Part shown: in pieces, positions 7,843 to 37,361 of the stretch
Layout: every line of letters begins with the position of its first letter
Numbering within the stretch: the stretch's first letter is position 1
DNA from: a virus
Length of the DNA stretch: 37,361 nucleotides
Strand: one strand, 5' to 3'
IMG/VR virus record: IMGVR_UViG_3300046660_000801
Location: 1 to 37,361 of that record
Program-made: the position numbers and the translations under genes
The notes under the pieces: generated by a model
Told to the model about the DNA's origin: nothing
Seen by the model: only the letters and a program-made list of their open reading frames with translations
Database searches by the model: none

Positions 7843-8732
7843 GTGTCCTGCCCTTGCATGCTGCCGAGGCCGAGAATCCGGTTGTTCCCTGGGAACAGCG
7901 CAGGCGGCTCGCTCTGGTTATTGATCACGTTGTCGTACTTGTCGCGGCAATCCGAGATGCCGGCGGGGAACAGCCCGCCACGCTCGTGGCGCTTCCTGCA
8001 CCCGGGAATGACCGAATACGCCACGCCGACGGTCGGGTCGAACGGGAGCGGCAGCGCCAGCGTGTAGACGCCAGCCTCGAAGGCGTGCACTTCCATCTCC
8101 ATCCCGGCATAGGGGCCGGTCAGCACGCGGAACACGCCGGCGCCGTACCAGTCCGACACCTCCAGGCGCGCGCTGTCGGTGAAGGTGCGTCGCGTCGATA
8201 CGGCGGTGAGCGTGCTGGTGACGCGCAGGGCTTCGACGTCGACCTTGCACATCGAATCGCCCAGCTTCGCGCGGCACATGGGCTGGTAGACGTCGCCGAT
8301 GGGCTGCTGCAGGGCCTGGGCGAGGCTGCGCAGTTCTGCCTTGAAGCTCGAGCGACCGGCGGAGATCTCGCCAAGCCAGCCAGAAGTGAGCTTCGTAATG
8401 CCCATCGTCAGGTCGCGCGGATTGACCTCGAAGACCGTCACAAAGCAGTTGTCCCAGATGCCTCCGACGATCTGCTCCTCGGTCATGAAGTCATCTGAAA
8501 GGGCGCCAGAGATGTCGGAATTCGACACCGCCCCGTCGGCGGTGCTCGCGATCGCCATGGGGTTCACACCATCCCTGGCCTTGTAGACCAAGCCACCAAT
8601 CAGCAGATCTCGTGCCCACTGCGTCAGCGTGAACACCGCGCCGCCCTTTTGCTCCAGGTACCAGCACCATGCGCGCGCATTCGACCCACGTGCGAAATCC
8701 GCCTTGAGCGCGACGGAGATGCTCTTGCTCAT
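7839..8732 (-). CDS. DUF2163 / BR0599-family tail tip protein
   Basis: A 297-residue protein starting MSKSISVALKADFARG at the ATG at 8732. This ATG overlaps the stop of the upstream DUF2460 gene; the open frame runs further upstream but only through that gene. The C-terminal part carries VIPGCRKRHE...GLFPAGISDCRDKY with conserved cysteines, and an earlier one is PMCRAKLGDSMCK. These are hallmarks of the DUF2163/phage BR0599 family, in which GTA homologues form a tail hub with a metal-binding cysteine cluster. It sits between the distal tail and NlpC/P60 genes in the canonical order. Confidence 0.82.
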   Translation of the reverse strand: MSKSISVALKADFARGSNARAWCWYLEQKGGAVFTLTQWARDLLIGGLVYKARDGVNPMAIASTADGAVSNSDISGALSDDFMTEEQIVGGIWDNCFVTVFEVNPRDLTMGITKLTSGWLGEISAGRSSFKAELRSLAQALQQPIGDVYQPMCRAKLGDSMCKVDVEALRVTSTLTAVSTRRTFTDSARLEVSDWYGAGVFRVLTGPYAGMEMEVHAFEAGVYTLALPLPFDPTVGVAYSVIPGCRKRHERGGLFPAGISDCRDKYDNVINNQSEPPALFPGNNRILGLGSMQGQDT

Positions 8733-14596: not shown

Positions 14597-16717
14597 TCAG
14601 GCGCCGTTGGCCTTGTAGAGACCGCGGTAGTCCACCGCCTTGGCAGCGAAATCGAGGCGGCACTTGTAGGAGACCCCGTCGACCTCGAAGCCCATCTCGG
14701 ACTCGATCACCGGGCCTTCGGCCCCGTCGAGATAGGCGTACTCGACCGTGTCGATCTGCGAGTTCGCAGCGGCCAGATACCAACCCGTGGCACTGGTGCC
14801 ATCGAGCAACGGCTCGACCACCGGCTCCAGGGCCGTACGGCCGCCGGTGCGGAATTCGTTGATCTCGGCCTTGGTGGCCGGCACGTAGTTGCTGCTGGTC
14901 AGCTGGTAGGCCGTTTGCTCCAGCGCTGCGGGCACGATCAGGTACGACGGAGCGATATTCAGCTCTTCGTTCTGCAGGCCCTTCTGCACGCGCATGGCCG
15001 TGCGACCGGTGGCAAGCGCGCTGAACTGGAGCGCCGAGCCGGCGCCCGTGCCGAGGTTCGCATGGGTCGCGTGGAACAGCGCGACACCATCCGACAGCGC
15101 GGCGTTGGCCGTGAGCTGCGAATAGACGGTGCGGTTCTCCAGGCGGCGAGCCGAGGCACCGAAGGCGCTGACCAGGCGGTCGAAGCCGCGCAGATCGTCG
15201 TTGATGATGGCTTGGCGGGTCAGCGCGACGATGCGGCCGTAGGTGACGACGGCATAGGTCTCGGCGCCGTCCTGCATCGTGCCATAGGTGAACTCGCCAT
15301 GCTCGTTCGTACGCAGCAGCTCGGGCGCGCCGGAAAGCTGCACCACGCTGATGTTCTTGAAGTCGGGCGCGTTCGGTGCGCGGCGGGCCCACACGCCATA
15401 GGTGCCGGGGTTTTCGTCGTAGGCATTGCGCAGGCGCTTGTTGGCGACATTGGCGAACAGCGACGGAAAATCCGACGTTGTGTTGTAGCCGGGCGCGCGG
15501 AAGGTGAGCATGCGCGTGGCGAGCGCCAAGCGGTCCATGCCGCGCGTGCTGACATGGTTGGCTTCGAGGAACTCACGGCCCATTTCCAGCAGCGACATGC
15601 CGCGGAACTGACGGCCGTTGTCGTCGAGCTGCGTGCGCGCGGCGACGCGGTGCATGATGGCCTGCTCGAGGCCGGCCATGCGAGTAGCCATCTCGTCGCG
15701 CACGGTTTCGACGCGCACATTGCGGTGGCCACCGGCGGCGGCATCGCGCACGGCGAGCTCCTCCAGCACAGCCGAGCGCGCTTGCTCGACCGTCTGGCCT
15801 CCGCGAATCAGTCCAGTGGCGAGGTGTGCGACGTTGTGACGGACGCACAGTTCGCTGATGTCGCTGGCGCGCTGGGCAGCGGCTTGCGTCGCTGCATCGA
15901 CAGCGTTGGGCTGCGACACGGCCGGGGCCGCTGCTGCGGCTGGCGCTGCGCGCTGTTCTTCGGTCGACGCGGCGGCGCCGCCGGCGGCGGAGGCTTGGGG
16001 CATGGGAGTTTCCTTGGGAGTTGAAAGTGCGGCGGAGGCGCCCACCGTGGGCGTTGCGGGTTGGCTGCGAACTTCGAGAAATTCGCAGGGGAAAGTGCGG
16101 GTGGCGACGTCGCCGGCTTGGGTCTGGGCGCGATCACCGCGCACCTGGCAATCCATGTCGGCCGGAATCGGAACGAGAGAGACTTCGTACGGCTCCCAAT
16201 CGATAATTCGGTAGACCCATTCGCCACCCTCTTCTTCGGGGGCGACCATCTCGACGCGGTGGCGGACATAGCCCACCGACACGTTGCGAACGATGCGGTC
16301 GGCGACGTCCTGCACGTAACCAGCAACAGACTCGCGGCGCGAGAAGGTCACGTCGCAAAGGCCTTCGCCACCCTCGATGGACGGGTTCTCGACAACGCCG
16401 AGTTGCGCCTCGAGGTCCCAGGAGTTGTGCGTATTGAGGAGCGGTGCGCCGCGGCTCAGCCGGTCGAGGCGAATGGAGCCTTCTTCGACGACCAGCTGCT
16501 CCATGTAGCTGCGATCGCGGTACCAGTCGTAGCGGCGGACCGCCGCGCCGGCCGCGAACACAAGCTGCGCCGTAGCGAGCGGAGCGCTTGTGTCAGCGCC
16601 CTCTTCCGATGCGCGGGTGAAGCCGCGCAACTCCATGGAGCGGCCGGCGAGCGGCAGTTCATCGCGGCGGGTGGTGGGTTGGGCTGCTTGGGGCATGGCC
16701 GCAACTTTGCGCGGCAT
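14597..16717 (-). CDS. Prohead protease fused to major capsid protein
   Basis: A 706-residue fusion. Residues about 20-215 form an S78-like prohead protease; the His is in LLNTHNSWD (His97) and the Ser in VRNVSVGYVRH (Ser147), with an acidic third residue probable. An Ala/Pro/Gln-rich linker (220-285) looks like a scaffolding segment. Residues about 290-706 form the HK97-type major capsid protein (GRIVALTRQAIINDDL, LIVPAALEQTAYQLT). A second ATG at 16003 (Met239) has an AAGGAA site eight bases upstream, so a shorter scaffold-capsid product is likely, as with lambda C and Nu3. The protease would remove scaffold and mature the shell. The frame could begin at either of two Met codons (16717 or 16696); I kept the longer. 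Confidence 0.85.
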   Translation of the reverse strand: MPRKVAAMPQAAQPTTRRDELPLAGRSMELRGFTRASEEGADTSAPLATAQLVFAAGAAVRRYDWYRDRSYMEQLVVEEGSIRLDRLSRGAPLLNTHNSWDLEAQLGVVENPSIEGGEGLCDVTFSRRESVAGYVQDVADRIVRNVSVGYVRHRVEMVAPEEEGGEWVYRIIDWEPYEVSLVPIPADMDCQVRGDRAQTQAGDVATRTFPCEFLEVRSQPATPTVGASAALSTPKETPMPQASAAGGAAASTEEQRAAPAAAAAPAVSQPNAVDAATQAAAQRASDISELCVRHNVAHLATGLIRGGQTVEQARSAVLEELAVRDAAAGGHRNVRVETVRDEMATRMAGLEQAIMHRVAARTQLDDNGRQFRGMSLLEMGREFLEANHVSTRGMDRLALATRMLTFRAPGYNTTSDFPSLFANVANKRLRNAYDENPGTYGVWARRAPNAPDFKNISVVQLSGAPELLRTNEHGEFTYGTMQDGAETYAVVTYGRIVALTRQAIINDDLRGFDRLVSAFGASARRLENRTVYSQLTANAALSDGVALFHATHANLGTGAGSALQFSALATGRTAMRVQKGLQNEELNIAPSYLIVPAALEQTAYQLTSSNYVPATKAEINEFRTGGRTALEPVVEPLLDGTSATGWYLAAANSQIDTVEYAYLDGAEGPVIESEMGFEVDGVSYKCRLDFAAKAVDYRGLYKANGA

Positions 16718-30437: not shown

Positions 30438-30865
30438 AGCGCGCCACCCCCATCGACCGCTCGCCGCTGGCCCTGACGGTGGACACGTCCTCGGTGCTGC
30501 GCGTGATCGTCGGCACGCCGCTGCTCGAAGGCGGCGCGATCGCCAACGGACACGGCCAGTCGGCCTCCATGGCGCTCGACCAGTTGCAGAACCGCGGCAT
30601 GGTGCGCACCCAAGGCGGCGCGCGACGCGATGGCACGCCGATCACCCGCTACGTCGCCACACGCAAGGGCGCGAGCGCGCTGGACCGCTACGACGCGGCC
30701 ATTCGCAAGAAAGGACCGGGGTTCGTCGCCGCCAGCTCGTTCGACGGTGAGCCGTACAAGTGCCCGGAGCTGGGGCGCACGTGCTTCCGGCCGGGGGCGT
30801 ACGACGCGTTTGCGCTGCCGAGTTTGTTTGGACAGAGGCGCGTGTTGCCGAAGGTGATCGCATGA
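30434..30865 (+). CDS. Hypothetical protein, winged-helix-like
   Basis: A 143-residue protein. Residues 20-75 contain VLRVIVGTPLLEGGAIANGHGQSASMALDQLQNRGMVRTQGGARR, a pattern like a short winged helix. The C-terminal half is Gly/Pro/Arg-rich with ELGRTCFRPGAYD. No named family. It is coupled to the HD gene and to the methyltransferase gene, and could control or recruit that enzyme; this is speculation. Confidence 0.55.
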   Translation: MKRATPIDRSPLALTVDTSSVLRVIVGTPLLEGGAIANGHGQSASMALDQLQNRGMVRTQGGARRDGTPITRYVATRKGASALDRYDAAIRKKGPGFVAASSFDGEPYKCPELGRTCFRPGAYDAFALPSLFGQRRVLPKVIA

Positions 30866-33114
30866 AGCGCGACGATTTCACTATCCCGCTCGACTTCCCG
30901 CACGAGCTGATCATCGACAACTTCGCCGGCGGCGGCGGCACGTCGACAGGCCTGGAAGCCGCCTTCGGACGGCCCGTGGACATCGCCATCAACCACGACC
31001 CTGAAGCACTGGCAATGCACGCGATCAACCACCCGCAGACGCTTCACCTACTGGAGAGCGTGTGGGAGGTGAACCCGATCAAGGTCACGCGCAACCAGCC
31101 GGTGGGCCTGGTCTGGCTGTCGCCCGACTGCAAGCACTTTTCCAAGGCCAAGGGCGGTACGCCGGTGGCGAAGCACATCCGCGGCTTGGCGTGGGTCGGC
31201 ATGCGCTGGATCGCGTTGACGAAGCCGCGCGTGATGATGCTGGAGAACGTCGAGGAATTCACCACCTGGGGGCCGCTGCTGGTGGGCGCCGATGGCATGG
31301 CCAGGCCGGACCCGGCGCGCAAGGGCAAGACCTTCGAGAGCTTCGTGCGCCAGTTGCGCGCACATGGCTACAAGGTCGAATGGCGCGAGCTGCGAGCCTG
31401 CGACCACGGCGCGCCGACCATCCGTAAGCGCCTCTTCCTCGTCGCGCGACGCGATGGCCTGCCGATCATCTGGCCGGACGCTACGCATGGCAATCCCGTG
31501 AGCGCCGAGGTGCTCGCGGGCAAGCTGCTGCCCTGGCGCTCGGCCGCCGAATGCATCGACTTCAGCCTGCCGGCGAGGAGCATCTTCGGCCGCGATCGCG
31601 CGCTGGCCGTGAACACCTTGCGCCGCGTGGCGAAAGGACTCTGGCGGCACGTGCTTGCCAGCCCGAAGCCTTTCATCGTGGGCGTGGGCGGCCGCATGGG
31701 ACAGTCCCCGGAGCGCTCCGTCGGCATGCCACTGCAAACTATCACATCGAAGGCCGATTCGTGCGTGGCGCAGCCGGTGCTCGCGCCCTTCGTGAGCGAG
31801 CACGCCAACGCCAGCAATCAGCGCAACATGGCCGCCGACGAGCCGCTGCGCACGATCTGCGCGCAGGTCAAGGGCGGGCACTTCTCGGTGGTCGCCCCCA
31901 CTCTTGCGCCATTGCGCGGGACCGAGGAAAGCCACCTGCAGTGCGACGACATCGCCGAGCCTCTGTCGACGGTTTCAGCCGGCGGCACGCACCACGCGCT
32001 TGCTGGCGCACACCTGATCACCATCGGCTACGGCGAGCGGCCAGGCCAGCCCGCCCGCGCTCAAGACCTCACGGCGCCGCTCGGCACCATCGTTGCCGCC
32101 AACAAGCACGCCGTGGTCGAGGGCGCGTTCATCACGAAGTTCCGGGCGAACAGCGTGGGCCACGACATTCAGGAGCCACTGCACACGGTCACCGCCAACA
32201 GCTTCATCAAGCGCCCTGGGGGCAGCGTGCCGCTCGGCATCGTGGCGGCGCACCTGGTCGACGCGGGGCACGGCGAGGGCAAGGAGGGCAGCAAGCGCTT
32301 CAGCCACGGCGTACGGAGCGTCGAGCAGCCACTCAACACCGTGACGGCCAGCGGCGCCACCAGCGCAGTGGCGGCCATTCACCTCACGCACCTGACACAT
32401 CATGGCGAGCGCGCCGGCAACGATCCGGCCGAGCCGCTACGCACCATCACCGGGGCACACCGCGGCGAACAGGCAATGGTCGCCGCATGCCTGGAGCAGG
32501 CGAACGGCGGCTTCTACGAGGGCGACGGCCGCGCCGCCGACGCGCCGATGTCCACCATCACCGCCGCAGGCAGCAACCAGCGCCTGATCACCGCATATTG
32601 CGTGAAGTACTACAGCAGCGGCGGCCAATGGCAGGGCCTCGCTGAGCCCATGCACACGCTGCCGACGAAGGGCCGCATGGGTCTTGTGGAGGCGGTGCAG
32701 GTGCCCGCCGATTGCCTGGCGCCCGACCTGCGCGAACGGGCCAGGCAATGCGCCATGCTGCTGCACGAGCACCTACCAGTGCAGTTCCCCGAGGCCGCCG
32801 ACCTGGTGCTGATGCTCCACGAAGGCCAATGGTGGGTGCTGGTGGACATCACGCTGCGCATGCTCAAGGCGCCCGAGCTGTTCCTCGCTCAGAGCTTTCC
32901 GGCCGACTACATCATCCACGAGATTCCCGATCCGGCATTGCTGTTCCAAGGCGGAGTTCAGGCGGCGGATCCGCTGGCGGTGCCGCGCATCAAGCTGACC
33001 GCGACGGCTCAGGTCCGCATGTGCGGCAACAGCGTCGCGCCGGCGCAGGCCGAAGCGCTCGTGCGGGCCAACTTCGCGCACGAAGCAAGGATCTACGGGA
33101 GGGTCGCCGCATGA
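30862..33114 (+). CDS. Phage C5 cytosine DNA methyltransferase
   Basis: A 750-residue cytosine-5 methyltransferase. Motif I is NFAGGGGTSTG (residues 20-30), motif IV with the catalytic cysteine is LSPDCKHFSKAKGG (Cys90), motif VI is LENVEEF (127-133), motif VIII is TIRKRLFLVARRDG, and the C-terminal motif IX-X part ends CGNSVAPAQAEAL. Between these is a large insert of about 370 residues with nine degenerate copies of PLxT(I/V)(T/S), such as EPLRTIC, EPLSTVS, QPLNTVT and EPLRTIT. Each is spaced by roughly 30-50 residues. The enzyme would methylate phage DNA to escape host restriction. It is the longest early gene and precedes the DGR. Confidence 0.88.
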   Translation: MKRDDFTIPLDFPHELIIDNFAGGGGTSTGLEAAFGRPVDIAINHDPEALAMHAINHPQTLHLLESVWEVNPIKVTRNQPVGLVWLSPDCKHFSKAKGGTPVAKHIRGLAWVGMRWIALTKPRVMMLENVEEFTTWGPLLVGADGMARPDPARKGKTFESFVRQLRAHGYKVEWRELRACDHGAPTIRKRLFLVARRDGLPIIWPDATHGNPVSAEVLAGKLLPWRSAAECIDFSLPARSIFGRDRALAVNTLRRVAKGLWRHVLASPKPFIVGVGGRMGQSPERSVGMPLQTITSKADSCVAQPVLAPFVSEHANASNQRNMAADEPLRTICAQVKGGHFSVVAPTLAPLRGTEESHLQCDDIAEPLSTVSAGGTHHALAGAHLITIGYGERPGQPARAQDLTAPLGTIVAANKHAVVEGAFITKFRANSVGHDIQEPLHTVTANSFIKRPGGSVPLGIVAAHLVDAGHGEGKEGSKRFSHGVRSVEQPLNTVTASGATSAVAAIHLTHLTHHGERAGNDPAEPLRTITGAHRGEQAMVAACLEQANGGFYEGDGRAADAPMSTITAAGSNQRLITAYCVKYYSSGGQWQGLAEPMHTLPTKGRMGLVEAVQVPADCLAPDLRERARQCAMLLHEHLPVQFPEAADLVLMLHEGQWWVLVDITLRMLKAPELFLAQSFPADYIIHEIPDPALLFQGGVQAADPLAVPRIKLTATAQVRMCGNSVAPAQAEALVRANFAHEARIYGRVAA

Positions 33115-33620
33115 ACCGCGCCCAACGCCGCGCCACGCACCGCCGCATGTCGATGCCCGCACCGAACCCCACCACCTGGGCGGCCGTCATCGCCGCATGC
33201 CGGCCGATGGACGAATCGCTCGGCGACGACATCCTGACGAAGCTGCACAGCGCCTTCGACGATCTGCGAAAGGGCAGCACCGACGACGACTTGTTCGACC
33301 GCCTGGCGGCCGCCATCAACGTCGGCATCGTACGCGCCGAGCAGATCGACGAACTGTGCGTCGGCCCGATGCTGGCCGCACGCGACGCGCTGATCCGCTG
33401 TGACGAGATCCGCGGCAAGCACGGGCGTTACGGCTTCGACGGTCTCGGCCTGCAAGCCATGGCCGCCGGCCTCGAGGTCTACGAGGAGATGGTGCGCAAC
33501 AGCACGCCGCTGCAGATGCGCGAAGCCATGACGGCCTCCATCGCTCGTATGCACCAGCAGGAGGCTGCCGCAGGTGCGCGTCCCACCCCCTCCCTGGTCC
33601 CGCAATCCCCCAACGCCTGA
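33111..33620 (+). CDS. Hypothetical protein upstream of the DGR targets
   Basis: A 169-residue protein overlapping the methyltransferase stop (ATGA). It is helical and acidic (DDILTKLHSAFDDLRKGSTDDDLFDRLAAAINVGIVRAEQIDELCVGPMLAARDALIRCDEIRGKHGRYGF). The pattern resembles small phage proteins often placed near regulatory or replication genes, but no family was recognised. Its stop is 10 bases before the first DGR target gene, so it is part of the same transcript. Confidence 0.65.
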   Translation: MNRAQRRATHRRMSMPAPNPTTWAAVIAACRPMDESLGDDILTKLHSAFDDLRKGSTDDDLFDRLAAAINVGIVRAEQIDELCVGPMLAARDALIRCDEIRGKHGRYGFDGLGLQAMAAGLEVYEEMVRNSTPLQMREAMTASIARMHQQEAAAGARPTPSLVPQSPNA

Positions 33621-33630
33621 AAGGCACCCC

Positions 33631-34218
33631 ATGCAACTCCACATTGCGCACGCCACGATCAACCTGCACTTGCCCCTGTCGGCGACTGGCGGTATCGGAG
33701 CGTTCACCGAACTCGCAGCCGAGCCCGCCGCAGCCACCACCGGCCAGACGCCGCCGGCGCACGGCGAATACTGGGCCGGCCAGGGCGGGCGCTACATCTG
33801 CACGCATCCCGCGCTGTTGGGCTTGCCGGCGCGGCACCTGATCTTCGGCGCCGACGAGGCCGAAGACCTCGCCTTCGGCCCCTCGGTCGACGTGCCCAGC
33901 GCAAAGAGCCAGCTCGACAGCCGCGCCAACACCGCCGCCCTGCTCGCCGCAAGCCGCGATCACGCCGCCGCGAAATGGGCCAGCGAATACGAGGCCGACG
34001 GCCACAGCGACTTCCATCTGCCCAGCCGCATGGATCTGCTGATGGCCTACGTGTGCGCGCCCAAGCTCTTCAAGCCGAGCGGCTGGTACTGGAGCAGCAC
34101 GCAGACCTCGCGCAACCTCGCCTTCGTCCAGGACTTCGAGTACGGCTACAGCGGCTGGAACGGCAAGGACCTCGAGCGCAGGGTTCGTGCTTGCCGCTGG
34201 ATTCACTTGAACGCTTGA
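33631..34218 (+). CDS. DGR target protein 1, DUF1566-like, carries VR1
   Basis: A 195-residue protein starting at 33631 with AAAGG about six bases upstream; the upstream in-frame start at 33574 lies inside the previous gene. Residues about 50-195 form a DUF1566/Lcl_C-like domain of C-type-lectin or FGE type (GQGGRYICTHPALLGLPARHLIFG, DFHLPSRMDLLMAY, SGWYWSSTQTSR, RVRACRWIHL). The domain ends in the variable repeat (residues 156-189). Compared with the template-encoded residues, 159, 163, 171, 173, 175, 178, 181 and 183 are altered; these are T, L, Y, Y, G, G, L and R here. Diversified residues would form a ligand-binding surface. There is no signal peptide, so display on the virion or inside the cell are both possible. 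Confidence 0.85.
   Translation: MQLHIAHATINLHLPLSATGGIGAFTELAAEPAAATTGQTPPAHGEYWAGQGGRYICTHPALLGLPARHLIFGADEAEDLAFGPSVDVPSAKSQLDSRANTAALLAASRDHAAAKWASEYEADGHSDFHLPSRMDLLMAYVCAPKLFKPSGWYWSSTQTSRNLAFVQDFEYGYSGWNGKDLERRVRACRWIHLNA
34098..34197 (+). repeat. DGR variable repeat VR1
   Basis: Exactly 100 bases, matching the TR at 36136-36235. It differs at 11 positions, and all 11 are adenines in the TR: A to C (3), A to T (4), A to G (4). The last 17 bases before the end are identical and form the IMH-like 3' part. Confidence 0.95.
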
Positions 34219-34233
34219 CCCCTTCAGCCCTTC

Positions 34234-34267
34234 ACCGGCGCTGAGCGCCGGTTCACGAAATTTTTTT
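34234..34267 (+). terminator. Hairpin and T-run after VR1
   Basis: ACCGGCGC-TGA-GCGCCGGT (34234-34252), eight base pairs, then a run of seven T (34261-34267). The same unit recurs after VR2 and VR3. It looks like an intrinsic terminator and also like the DNA hairpin that follows variable repeats in the Bordetella phage DGR and is needed for efficient target recognition. Confidence 0.7.
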
Positions 34268-34289
34268 CGATCAACCACCGGAGCACTTC

Positions 34290-34802
34290 ATGCAAACCAA
34301 TGCCATCACCCTGCCGGCCTTCGGCGCCACCATCCCCGGCCAGGGCGGCACCTTCGCTGCAATCCTGCGCGCGCCGCGCGTCGGCGACGCCGAACAGCCG
34401 CCCTACGCGCTGATCGTGTCCGACGCGGCCGCCGGCGAGTTCCGCAGCCAGTGGGGCGAATACGGCAAGGACGTGGCCGGCGCCAAGAGCCGCAGCGACG
34501 GCCGCGGCAACACCGAAGCGATGGCCGACGCCGAGTGCCCCGCCGCGCTGCGCGTGCGCGAGCTGCGCATCGATGGGCATGCCGATTGGTTCATGCCGAG
34601 CCTCGGCGAACTCAGTTCGGCCGCCGCCAATGTGCCCGAGCTCTTCAGCACCGAGGGCTGGTATTGGACCAGCACGCAGGGCTCGCGCGGCTACGCCTTC
34701 GTCCAGGTCTTCGAGTACGGCAGCAGCTACTGGTACGGCAAGGACCGCGAGCACGGGGTTCGTGCTTGCCGCGCGATTCCACTTGCCCTCTTGACCGCTT
34801 AA
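34290..34802 (+). CDS. DGR target protein 2, DUF1566-like, carries VR2
   Basis: A 170-residue paralogue of targets 1 and 3 with a shorter N-terminus. CGGAG lies six bases before the ATG. It reads GGTFAAILRAPRVG and later VAGAKSRSDGRGNTEAM, WFMPSLGELSSAAANVPELF and TEGWYWTSTQGSRGYAF, a clear DUF1566/Lcl_C-like, lectin-type domain. VR2 covers residues about 128-161. Altered residues relative to the template are G131, G134, Y135, V140, Y143, S145, Y147, Y149, G150, R153 and G156. It ends with IPLALLTA in place of WIHL, so the post-VR tail differs from the other two. It is less similar to targets 1 and 3 than they are to each other. Confidence 0.85.
   Translation: MQTNAITLPAFGATIPGQGGTFAAILRAPRVGDAEQPPYALIVSDAAAGEFRSQWGEYGKDVAGAKSRSDGRGNTEAMADAECPAALRVRELRIDGHADWFMPSLGELSSAAANVPELFSTEGWYWTSTQGSRGYAFVQVFEYGSSYWYGKDREHGVRACRAIPLALLTA
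34673..34772 (+). repeat. DGR variable repeat VR2
   Basis: 100 bases, aligned with the TR without gaps. Fourteen differences, all at TR adenines (8 A to G, 5 A to T, 1 A to C), making VR2 the most diverged of the three. Confidence 0.95.
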
Positions 34803-34809
34803 CCCCTTC

Positions 34810-34841
34810 ACCGGCGCTCGCGCCGGTTCGCGAAATTTTTT
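34810..34841 (+). terminator. Hairpin and T-run after VR2
   Basis: ACCGGCG-CTCG-CGCCGGT (34810-34827), seven base pairs with a four-base loop, then TTTTTT (34836-34841). A slightly shorter relative of the hairpins after VR1 and VR3. Confidence 0.68.
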
Positions 34842-34854
34842 CATAGGACCTTCG

Positions 34855-35526
34855 ATGACCACTGTCACAACGCCGCCCGTCCGCCTGAACCTCGCATGCG
34901 CTGCCAGCGCCTTCGAGAATTGGGAGAACGACTTCCGCGCCAATCCCGGATCGTTCTACACCGCCGAGGAAACCGCCGCGATGGCAGTCGCGACCATCTC
35001 CGAAGCTCGCGCGATCCACTTCCTTGCTCTGCTGCGCGATCTGCCGTCCGTCGATACCCCACCGGCCGCGGGCGAGATCTGGCCCGGCCAGGGCGGCCGG
35101 TATATCTGCACCATCGCAGCTTCAGACGGCCTGCCAGAGCGCCATCTGGTCTTCGGCACGTCCGAAGCCGAAGACCTCACCTTCGGCCCATACCTCGACG
35201 TGCCCGGCGCGAAGAGCATGGTCGACGGCCGCGCCAACACCGCGGCGCTGCTGGCCAGCGGCAGCGAGCACCCCGCCGCCGCCTGGGCCACCGCCTACAC
35301 CGAAGACGGGCACACCGACTTCCACCTGCCGAGCCGCGTCGAACTGGTGCTGGCGCATGCGCACGCCAAGGAGCACTTCAGCGAGGACGGCTACTACTGG
35401 TCGAGCACGCAGACCTCGCGCGGCTACGCCTTCGTCCAGGACTTCGAGGGCGGCAGCAGCGGCTGGGACGTCAAGGACAGCGAGCGCAGGGTTCGTGCTT
35501 GCCGCTGGATTCACTTGACCGCTTGA
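34855..35526 (+). CDS. DGR target protein 3, DUF1566-like, carries VR3
   Basis: A 223-residue paralogue with the longest N-terminal part: residues about 20-65 are helical (FENWENDFRANPGSFYTAEE, then MAVATISEARAIHFLALL). AGGA is six bases before the ATG. The domain (GQGGRYICTIAASDGLPERHLVFG, DFHLPSRVELVLAH, GYYWSSTQTSR) is closest to target 1. VR3 covers residues 184-217. Altered residues are T187, G190, Y191, G199, S201, G203, D205, V206, S209 and R211. The end is WIHLTA. N-terminal differences between the three targets suggest three different attachment partners, with a shared variable ligand-binding domain. Confidence 0.85.
   Translation: MTTVTTPPVRLNLACAASAFENWENDFRANPGSFYTAEETAAMAVATISEARAIHFLALLRDLPSVDTPPAAGEIWPGQGGRYICTIAASDGLPERHLVFGTSEAEDLTFGPYLDVPGAKSMVDGRANTAALLASGSEHPAAAWATAYTEDGHTDFHLPSRVELVLAHAHAKEHFSEDGYYWSSTQTSRGYAFVQDFEGGSSGWDVKDSERRVRACRWIHLTA
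35406..35505 (+). repeat. DGR variable repeat VR3
   Basis: 100 bases, aligned with the TR without gaps. Thirteen differences, all at TR adenines (10 A to G, 2 A to T, 1 A to C). Confidence 0.95.
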
Positions 35527-35541
35527 CACCTTCAGCCCTTC

Positions 35542-35574
35542 ACCGGCGCTGAGCGCCGGTTCGCGAATTTTTTT
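35542..35574 (+). terminator. Hairpin and T-run after VR3
   Basis: ACCGGCGC-TGA-GCGCCGGT (35542-35560), then TTTTTTT (35568-35574), identical in stem to the unit after VR1. Avd starts seven bases after the T-run. Confidence 0.7.
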
Positions 35575-35580
35575 GGAACC

Positions 35581-35955
35581 ATGGCCCTCTACACCGACCT
35601 CCCGATCTACAAGCACGGCTGCGACTTGCTTTCGCTGGCGCTGGACGTGCAAACCCAGATGCCGCGCATTTTCAAGCGCAGCCTGGGCGAGAAGATCCAC
35701 GCGCTGTGCGTGGAGATGCTGGAGGCGATGGCCATGGCGAATGCCTGCCGCGGCGCGGAGCGGATGCAGCAACTCGACAACCTGCTGCGCCACCTGCGCG
35801 CCACCACGGCAATGCTGCGCGTCAGCCATGACAAGCGGCTGATTTCTTCCAAGCTCTGGGCCGCCTCCGTCGAATTGCTCGACGCTGTCGGCTCCCAGGC
35901 CGGCGGTTGGCGCAAGCAGACCCTCGGCACCCTTTCCGCAGCGCCTGCTGCATGA
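35581..35955 (+). CDS. avd: DGR accessory variability determinant, four-helix bundle
   Basis: A 124-residue helical protein: IYKHGCDLLSLALDVQTQMPRI, then RSLGEKIHALCVEMLEAMAMANAC, ERMQQLDNLLRHLRATTAMLRV and KLWAASVELLDAVGSQAGGW. This four-helix pattern and length match Avd, which forms a positively charged barrel-like pentamer that binds the reverse transcriptase and template RNA and is needed for mutagenic retrotransposition. It lies between the last target and the TR, as in the Bordetella phage DGR. Four-helix S23-like proteins are related in fold, but the context makes Avd the best call. Confidence 0.9.
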   Translation: MALYTDLPIYKHGCDLLSLALDVQTQMPRIFKRSLGEKIHALCVEMLEAMAMANACRGAERMQQLDNLLRHLRATTAMLRVSHDKRLISSKLWAASVELLDAVGSQAGGWRKQTLGTLSAAPAA

Positions 35956-36135
35956 CGGTCAAGGCCATCATGCCCGTGCGTTTTATGAATCCGGTCGGGC
36001 CGCTGGGCCACAAGCCCACCGCCATGCGCACCACGGAGACCGGCGAGCCGCAGCAGCAGCTCGCGCTCTGGTCCGGCGCAGTTTCCGAGCCGATCGGCGC
36101 AAGCCTTCGGCCCGGCGATGTAGATAGCCCGTCAT

Positions 36136-36235
36136 CACGCAGAACTCGCGCAACAACGCCTTCGTCCAGGACTTCGAGAACGGCAACAGCAACTGGAACG
36201 ACAAGGACAACGAGCACAGGGTTCGTGCTTGCCGC
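36136..36235 (+). ncRNA. DGR template repeat (TR) and surrounding template RNA region
   Basis: A 100-base template in the 320-base gap between Avd (stop 35955) and the reverse transcriptase start (36276). It aligns with VR1, VR2 and VR3 without gaps. It contains 29 adenines, of which 19 differ from the TR in at least one VR; no C, G or T position differs. AAC codons (in the frame used by the targets) dominate the variable positions, as in other DGRs. The matching part begins at CACGCAG and ends at GCCGC. A GCGGAT-TC-ATCCGC inverted repeat (36234-36247) lies directly after the TR and may help position the RNA for priming. The remaining bases upstream (35956-36135) show no other clear signal; the RNA ends are unknown. 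Confidence 0.95.
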
Positions 36236-36245
36236 GGATTCATCC

Positions 36246-36265
36246 GCCTCCCTCGAGGGGGAGGC
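36246..36265 (+). promoter_or_regulatory. Hairpin that overlaps the reverse transcriptase ribosome site
   Basis: GCCTCCC-TCGAGG-GGGAGGC has seven base pairs and a six-base loop. The ribosome site GAGGGGGAGG at 36255-36264 is in its right arm, 11 bases before the ATG at 36276. It may limit translation of the reverse transcriptase. Confidence 0.55.
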
Positions 36266-36275
36266 ACCCTTTTCC

Positions 36276-37361
36276 ATGGCCGACCTGGTGCAAGCCTGGT
36301 TGGACTGCCGGCGCCACAAGCGCCACAGCGCCAGCGCGCAGGCCTTCGAGGCCGACGCCGAGCGCAACCTCTGCGCCCTGCGCGCCGAGCTGCTGGCGGG
36401 CGCCTACCAGCCCGGCCGCAGCATCTGCTTCGTGGTCACGCGCCCGAAGCTGCGCGAGGTGTGGGCCGCGGACTTCCGCGACCGCATCGTGCACCACCTG
36501 CTCTACAACCGCATCGGCCCGCGCTTCGAGGCAAGCTTCATTCACGCGAGCTGCGCCTGCATCCGCGACCGCGGCACGCTGCAAGCCGCCCGGCTGCTCG
36601 CGCGCGACGTGCGCAGCGTCACGCAGAACTGGAGCCGGCCGGCGCACTACCTGAAGTGCGACCTGGCGAATTTCTTCGTGGCCATCGACAAGGCCACGCT
36701 GCGCGCCCAGCTCGCGCGCCGGGTGCACGAGCCGTTCTGGCTGGCGCTCACCGACACGGTGCTGTTCCACGACCCACGCACCGACCACGAGGTGCGTGGC
36801 CGCGCCGATCTGCTGGCGCGCGTGCCGGCGCACAAGAGCCTGTTCAATGCGCCCGACGACACGGGCCTGCCGATCGGCAACCTCTCGTCGCAGTTCTTCG
36901 CGAACGTGCACCTCGACGCCCTCGACCAGTACGCCAAGCACCACCTGAAGGCCACGCGCTATGTGCGCTACGTCGACGACTTCATCCTGCTGCACGAGTC
37001 GCCTCAGTGGTTGCACCAGGCGCTGCAGCGCATTGACGCCTTCCTGCCCGCGCAGTTGGGTGCGCGCCTGAATCCGCGCAAGACGATCCTGCAGCCGGTC
37101 GCCCGCGGCATCGACTTCGTGGGCCATGTGATCCGGCCCTGGAGCCACACCACGCGGCCGCGCACCGTGCGCACCGCCGTGCGGCGCATCGAGACGATGA
37201 AGAGCAGCGAGCTTTATGCCGCGGGCAACAGCTACCTCGGGCTAGTGCGCCAGGCCAGCCAGAGCCACCAGGACCAGGCCGCGATCGCGCGTGCGCTGCT
37301 CAAGCGCCGGCATGCGGTCGACGGCGGGTTGACCAAGATTTTCAGAAGGAAAGAAGCATGA
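36276..37361 (+). CDS. DGR reverse transcriptase
   Basis: A 361-residue RNA-dependent DNA polymerase of the DGR group. Motifs: an early REVWAADFRDRIVHHLLYNRI block (about 60-80), motif A KCDLANFF with Asp129, the DGR-type GLPIGNLSSQ (197-206, I-G-x3-S-Q in place of the usual QG), YVDD (232-235) and GIDFVGHVIRP (278-288). It copies the template RNA into cDNA with adenine errors. The start at 36276 has a GAGGGGGAGG site; the frame is open upstream to 35952, where an ATG overlaps the Avd stop, and then would read through the TR. The stop is the end of the window. It ends in a Lys/Arg-rich tail (IFRRKEA). Confidence 0.95.
   Translation: MADLVQAWLDCRRHKRHSASAQAFEADAERNLCALRAELLAGAYQPGRSICFVVTRPKLREVWAADFRDRIVHHLLYNRIGPRFEASFIHASCACIRDRGTLQAARLLARDVRSVTQNWSRPAHYLKCDLANFFVAIDKATLRAQLARRVHEPFWLALTDTVLFHDPRTDHEVRGRADLLARVPAHKSLFNAPDDTGLPIGNLSSQFFANVHLDALDQYAKHHLKATRYVRYVDDFILLHESPQWLHQALQRIDAFLPAQLGARLNPRKTILQPVARGIDFVGHVIRPWSHTTRPRTVRTAVRRIETMKSSELYAAGNSYLGLVRQASQSHQDQAAIARALLKRRHAVDGGLTKIFRRKEA

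Follow-up and report, generated by a model that had tools for sequence, protein, structure and literature searches.

One template repeat very probably diversifies three separate targets in a DGR of a temperate siphovirus

Introduction

The DGR of Bordetella phage BPP-1 has one target, Mtd. DGRs with up to four variable repeats (VRs) were published in 2012 (PMC3521204), with three VRs in Collimonas fungivorans and four each in Ralstonia solanacearum CMR15 and Pseudogulbenkiania (Schillinger et al. 2012, PMC3521204), and multi-VR DGRs make up 28.6% of the 948 DGRs of a 2019 survey (PMC6642488). The genome announcement of Burkholderia phage Magia (MT701587) describes two target genes, 47 and 57 (PMC7883833). 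Where viral DGR targets are annotated, most are tail proteins (PMC8144416). The hairpin or cruciform reported for phage DGRs has a 7-10 bp GC-rich stem and a GRNA loop and lies 4-34 bp downstream of the VR.

Here we analyse a DGR cassette at the end of a window of 37,361 nt, which is a whole IMG/VR virus record. The last letters of the window are the stop codon of the reverse transcriptase (RT) gene, and the 3' flank of the cassette beyond this codon lies outside the record. The sequence leaves little doubt that this is the DGR of a temperate siphovirus in which one template repeat (TR) diversifies three separate targets.

Results

Organization of the cassette

Three paralogous target genes, avd, the TR, and the RT gene follow one another on the + strand (Table 1). 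The coordinates bear out the gene order given in a preliminary description of this DNA, and all the parts that it named, one TR, one Avd, and one DGR-type RT after three DUF1566-like genes with a VR each, are located. Target 1 starts with the ATG at 33631; the GTG at 33574 is a mechanical ORF start only. Avd scores 45.8 bits against Pfam PF22296 (bAvd), for which the curated cut-off is 40, and matches phrog_3206, 'Avd protein of DGR', with an E value of 2.2e-23. The RT matches PF00078 (E 6.1e-13) and phrog_1423 (E 1.5e-106), and its best PDB sequence match is 8ub7, 'Reverse transcriptase' (E 5.4e-38). It contains the motifs IGNLSSQ and YVDD and is 32% identical to BPP-1 brt across 79% of the brt length.

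Table 1 Features of the cassette and the evidence for each (window coordinates).
Feature	Position	Strand	Evidence or remark
Target gene 1, Lcl_C/DUF1566 protein, 195 aa	33631..34218	+	Pfam PF07603, phrog_4245
VR1, 3' end of target 1	34098..34197	+	Core differs from TR at 11 sites, each a TR adenine
Hairpin after VR1, ACCGGCGC-TGA-GCGCCGGT, 8-bp stem	34234..34252	+	DNA fold -14.2 kcal/mol, z -5.6
Target gene 2, Lcl_C/DUF1566 protein, 170 aa	34290..34802	+	PF07603, phrog_4245
VR2, 3' end of target 2	34673..34773	+	Core differs from TR at 14 sites, each a TR adenine
Hairpin after VR2, ACCGGCG-CTCG-CGCCGGT	34810..34827	+	Offset and stem as after VR1; whole-segment z only -1.06
Target gene 3, Lcl_C/DUF1566 protein, 223 aa	34855..35526	+	PF07603, predicted fold
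VR3, 3' end of target 3	35406..35505	+	Core differs from TR at 13 sites, each a TR adenine
Hairpin after VR3, ACCGGCGC-TGA-GCGCCGGT	35542..35560	+	z -2.58
avd (accessory variability determinant), 124 aa	35581..35955	+	Pfam bAvd PF22296, phrog_3206
Template repeat (TR)	36136..36236	+	Blind repeat family and alignment to VRs
Hairpin between TR and RT, GCCTCCCT-CGAG-GGGGAGGC	36246..36265	+	z -2.42
DGR reverse transcriptase, 361 aa	36276..37361	+	PF00078, phrog_1423, PDB sequence match 8ub7

A blind repeat search recovers a four-copy family that consists of the TR and three VRs of ~100 nt, one at the end of each target gene, so that a single TR serves three target genes. No further copy is present on either strand of the 37,361-nt record; since the record stops at the RT stop codon, an extra VR may lie outside it. 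We count mismatches in the 96-nt core of the TR (36139-36234). In the alignment of the TR with the three VRs, proposed earlier as a check, 38 of 38 core mismatches, pooled over the VRs, fall on TR adenines. With 28 adenines in the 96-nt core, the probability that all 38 do so by chance is ~(28/96)^38, near 10^-20.

In the frame of the targets, the TR reads QNSRNNAFVQDFENGNSNWNDKDNEHRVRAC. The 28 adenines of the coding core lie mostly in AAC codons, eight in number, which are mutable to 15 amino acids and never to a stop codon; the sole TR codon able to turn into a stop codon is AAG. This allows about 2.6e16 protein variants for each target.

Fold of the target proteins

Targets 1, 2, and 3 match the Lcl_C family (PF07603) with E values of 1.2e-5, 5.5e-6, and 2.2e-6, scores that fall below the Pfam curated cut-off, and targets 1 and 2 match phrog_4245 with E values of 2e-21 and 1.3e-28. 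The assignment to Lcl_C is supported by the result of a fold search. In the AlphaFold2 model of target 3, the helical N-terminus has low confidence and a domain of about residues 70-220 has high confidence (pLDDT about 96-98 for residues 71-220). A phmmer search with target 3 against PDB sequences returns no match, but the fold search does. The best match, at Z 13.7, is to Legionella Lcl, whose C-terminal domain (8q4e) aligns at 3.7 Å over 121 residues; a fimbrial protein from Bacteroides (4eps) reaches Z 12.8, and many C-type lectins match at Z 8-9. The C-terminal domain of the targets is predicted to have a C-type lectin fold nearest to that of Lcl, carried over to targets 1 and 2 by their homology with target 3 (67% identity over 157 aa for target 1). 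The variable residues sit in the last strands of the lectin domain in the model of target 3, a placement that fits a variable binding face.

Position of the cassette and possible roles of the targets

The window phage has a lambda-like layout. Its - strand carries the late genes, the terminase, CII, and an O-like replication gene, and the DGR follows a cytosine methyltransferase gene on the + strand. This cytosine-5 methyltransferase (30853-33114) is long and has internal repeats between conserved ends. A single ORF of the window (14597-16717) has matches to head maturation protease families as well as to major head protein families.

In the contig of L005, the closest relative found, a tyrosine integrase lies past the RT. 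Among 140 relatives, integrase matches are downstream of the RT in 54 and upstream in none, and repressor matches are upstream only. Structural genes of the window phage lie near the RT in 1 of the 140, a lower bound because the queries come from one phage and could miss divergent tail genes. Phages Magia, LPPA56, and Cruim01 have the same DGR placement with the integrase downstream, and phage Haboob has it with the repressor upstream. Therefore, the cassette belongs to the early/integration (repressor-to-integrase) arm, a position that argues against simple membership of the targets in a tail operon.

As to role, our preferred reading, which we regard as an even call, is that the targets give the phage several variable proteins with which to bind the surface of host cells, and we lean slightly towards virion proteins encoded out of place over proteins acting in the cell. 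Legionella Lcl, whose C-terminal domain has the closest fold, is an adhesin. A plausible though somewhat doubtful alternative is that the targets are not virion parts. They would then be expressed from the early/lysogeny arm inside the infected cell or in the lysogen, and their variation would serve something else, for example superinfection exclusion or the binding of rival phage or host proteins. The integrase and structural-gene counts above, the same placement in the four named phages, and the late genes of the window on the opposite strand all speak for such non-virion targets; against them stand the fold, the predominance of tail proteins among annotated phage DGR targets (PMC8144416), and the divergent tail genes that the one-phage structural queries may miss. 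It seems unlikely, on our estimate, that this lineage has its DGR in the early/lysogeny arm with the targets as a non-tail-fibre repertoire made in the cell or lysogen, rewritten singly, with working variants kept. With the early-arm position conserved, the question of which ligands the targets bind becomes testable.

Signs of activity

The RT gene of L005 is 95.8% identical in DNA to that of the window. The preliminary description suggested comparing relatives for adenine-specific changes, and such changes are what we find: 39 of the 42 differences over the three VRs are at template adenines. The remaining three are a T>C change at TR position 36229, once in each VR, and this base is the only one at which the two TRs differ. 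The simplest reading of these sequences is that the template base was copied into every target. The stretch from avd to the RT, including the TR, is the best-conserved part of the cassette in the comparison with L005 (98.4-100%, whereas avd reaches 92% and the RT 95.8%), as expected of a functional template RNA.

The same description held that VRs identical across relatives, or loss of conservation in the RT, would argue against an active array. Neither holds here: near relatives have different VRs, and the motifs of the RT are retained, with dN 0.012 against dS 0.148 relative to L005 (0.025 against 0.303 for Avd), indicating that the intact RT and Avd frames are under purifying selection. In the wider set, 311 TR/VR pairs contain 3,849 adenine mismatches and 46 others. 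In addition, 346 of 394 non-adenine VR differences between related loci track the TR of their own locus, although these pairs are not independent. Taken as sequence evidence, these patterns suggest that the cassette is probably active. L005 also has a fourth VR (L005:1031-1137), in a short Lcl_C-like gene ~7 kb upstream of the RT; this gene is absent from the window.

A former DGR that is now inactive, with the VR differences as a relic of past activity, is very unlikely: the frames are intact and under purifying selection, divergence is at adenines only, with zero non-adenine changes accumulated in any VR core, and the TR change is matched in all three VRs of the L005 comparison. Tandem duplication and gene conversion among the targets alone, without mutagenic reverse transcription, would account for their being paralogues but would not restrict changes to the adenines of a separate, non-target copy, and with the RT and Avd adjoining the targets we consider it practically untenable.

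Rewriting of one target at a time

Two RT relatives of the window, L067 and L069, have three tandem VRs each. Across 7,384 nt (L067 1-7384 and L069 1190-8573), their sequences are separated by just 14 substitutions. All 14 are in the middle VR, at template adenines, and the other two VRs are unchanged. The two look like copies of one phage that are separated by a single retrohoming event, a reading that depends on correct assembly of the two metagenomic virus contigs. The shared stretch of L069 breaks off within a tRNA-Ser (8516-8605); thus, this copy appears integrated. L067 continues differently. The pair indicates that targets can be rewritten singly. The proposal that the array would diversify several proteins at once therefore stands in part: one TR does serve three targets, but here one VR of three is rewritten. 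The pair bears on why such arrays exist, as one gene is rewritten and the others stay working copies.

Just beyond the shared prophage stretch, L067 has an ORF with a PAAR motif followed by an ORF of the Tae4 family of T6SS amidase effectors (L067:8087-9236). At another locus, L062, comparison of the TR (L062:7871-7974) with that of L081 gives 13 differences, each of them A>N. This TR is poor in adenines, and both VRs nearly match it. Either the TR was overwritten by a mutagenised copy or the repeats collapsed in assembly.

Hairpins near the repeats

A near-identical GC-rich stem of 7-8 bp lies 36 nt past the end of the ungapped TR/VR homology at all three VRs. These hairpins are near those of BPP-1 and other phage DGRs in position and size, but the loops are TGA and CTCG, not GRNA. 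The hairpin between the TR and the RT is possibly part of the template RNA; the segment spanning it (36235-36275) is identical in L005.

We rejected lineage-wide conservation of the hairpin. In the wider set of relatives, stems of at least 7 bp follow 19% of VRs and 8% of TRs and occur in 4% of control windows; a perfect hairpin follows only a minority of VRs and recurs mainly in close relatives and in one Pseudomonas group. We also rejected the hairpins as plain terminators, for the T-run begins about 8 nt past the stem, atypical for an intrinsic terminator. They may have some role in termination.

Discussion

A mechanism for the cassette can be proposed by analogy with BPP-1. The TR would be transcribed, and the RT and Avd would make a cDNA with random bases opposite the template adenines. 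By mutagenic retrohoming, the cDNA would replace the matching 3' end of any one of the three paralogous targets, guided by the GC-rich 3' end common to the VRs and probably by the hairpin after the VR. In one event, as many as 19 codons with adenines would be altered in a single C-type lectin domain, while the TR would stay intact. The RNA, cDNA, and hairpin steps are drawn from BPP-1; the copying from TR to VR and the rewriting of a single target are indicated by sequence, namely by the comparison with L005 and by L067/L069, respectively.

To place the number of targets, we counted VRs in 125 loci including the window, each with at least 7 kb upstream of the RT. The first count gave no VR in 5 loci, one in 9, two in 79, three in 27, and four in 5. 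Three VRs each in L010 and L085, and two each in L017 and L088, were overlooked at first, their TRs lying farther upstream than searched; L111 yielded no VR on the extended search. Three or four VRs are thus present in at least 34 of the 125 loci (27%), and two is the commonest number, in counts that cover VRs within the fetched flanks and include some prophages present in two collections. Two to four targets are normal in this RT lineage. The rarity initially ascribed to three targets was overstated, the more so as multi-VR DGRs have been published since 2012. The cassette is a clean multi-target DGR and shows that multiple targets are common in this temperate-phage lineage. Its most useful additions are the single-target snapshot in L067/L069 and the early-arm position.

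Judged by their description, the DGRs of Schillinger et al. 2012 (PMC3521204) resemble the window in that one RT serves paralogous targets, three or four in number, each diverging on its own. The six VRs of the Stenotrophomonas sp. SKA14 DGR lie in separate ORFs, of which five encode DUF1566 proteins, and this DGR has two TRs, whereas the window has one (PMC6642488). BPP-1 shares with the window the logic of Avd, TR, and RT, adenine-specific changes, and a C-terminal VR. A hairpin follows the VR in both, but its loop is GRNA in BPP-1 and TGA or CTCG in the window. Phage Magia (PMC7883833) shares an RT about 60% identical, Avd, a TR between avd and the RT, C-type-lectin targets, and a DGR in the early arm upstream of the integrase. 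It also has three VRs with adenine-only changes, since its gene 46 (L165:8251-8341) contains, beyond the two announced targets, a third VR with 11 such changes. Unlike in the window, where the three targets are in tandem, two of the three VRs of Magia are adjacent and the third lies ~6 kb upstream.
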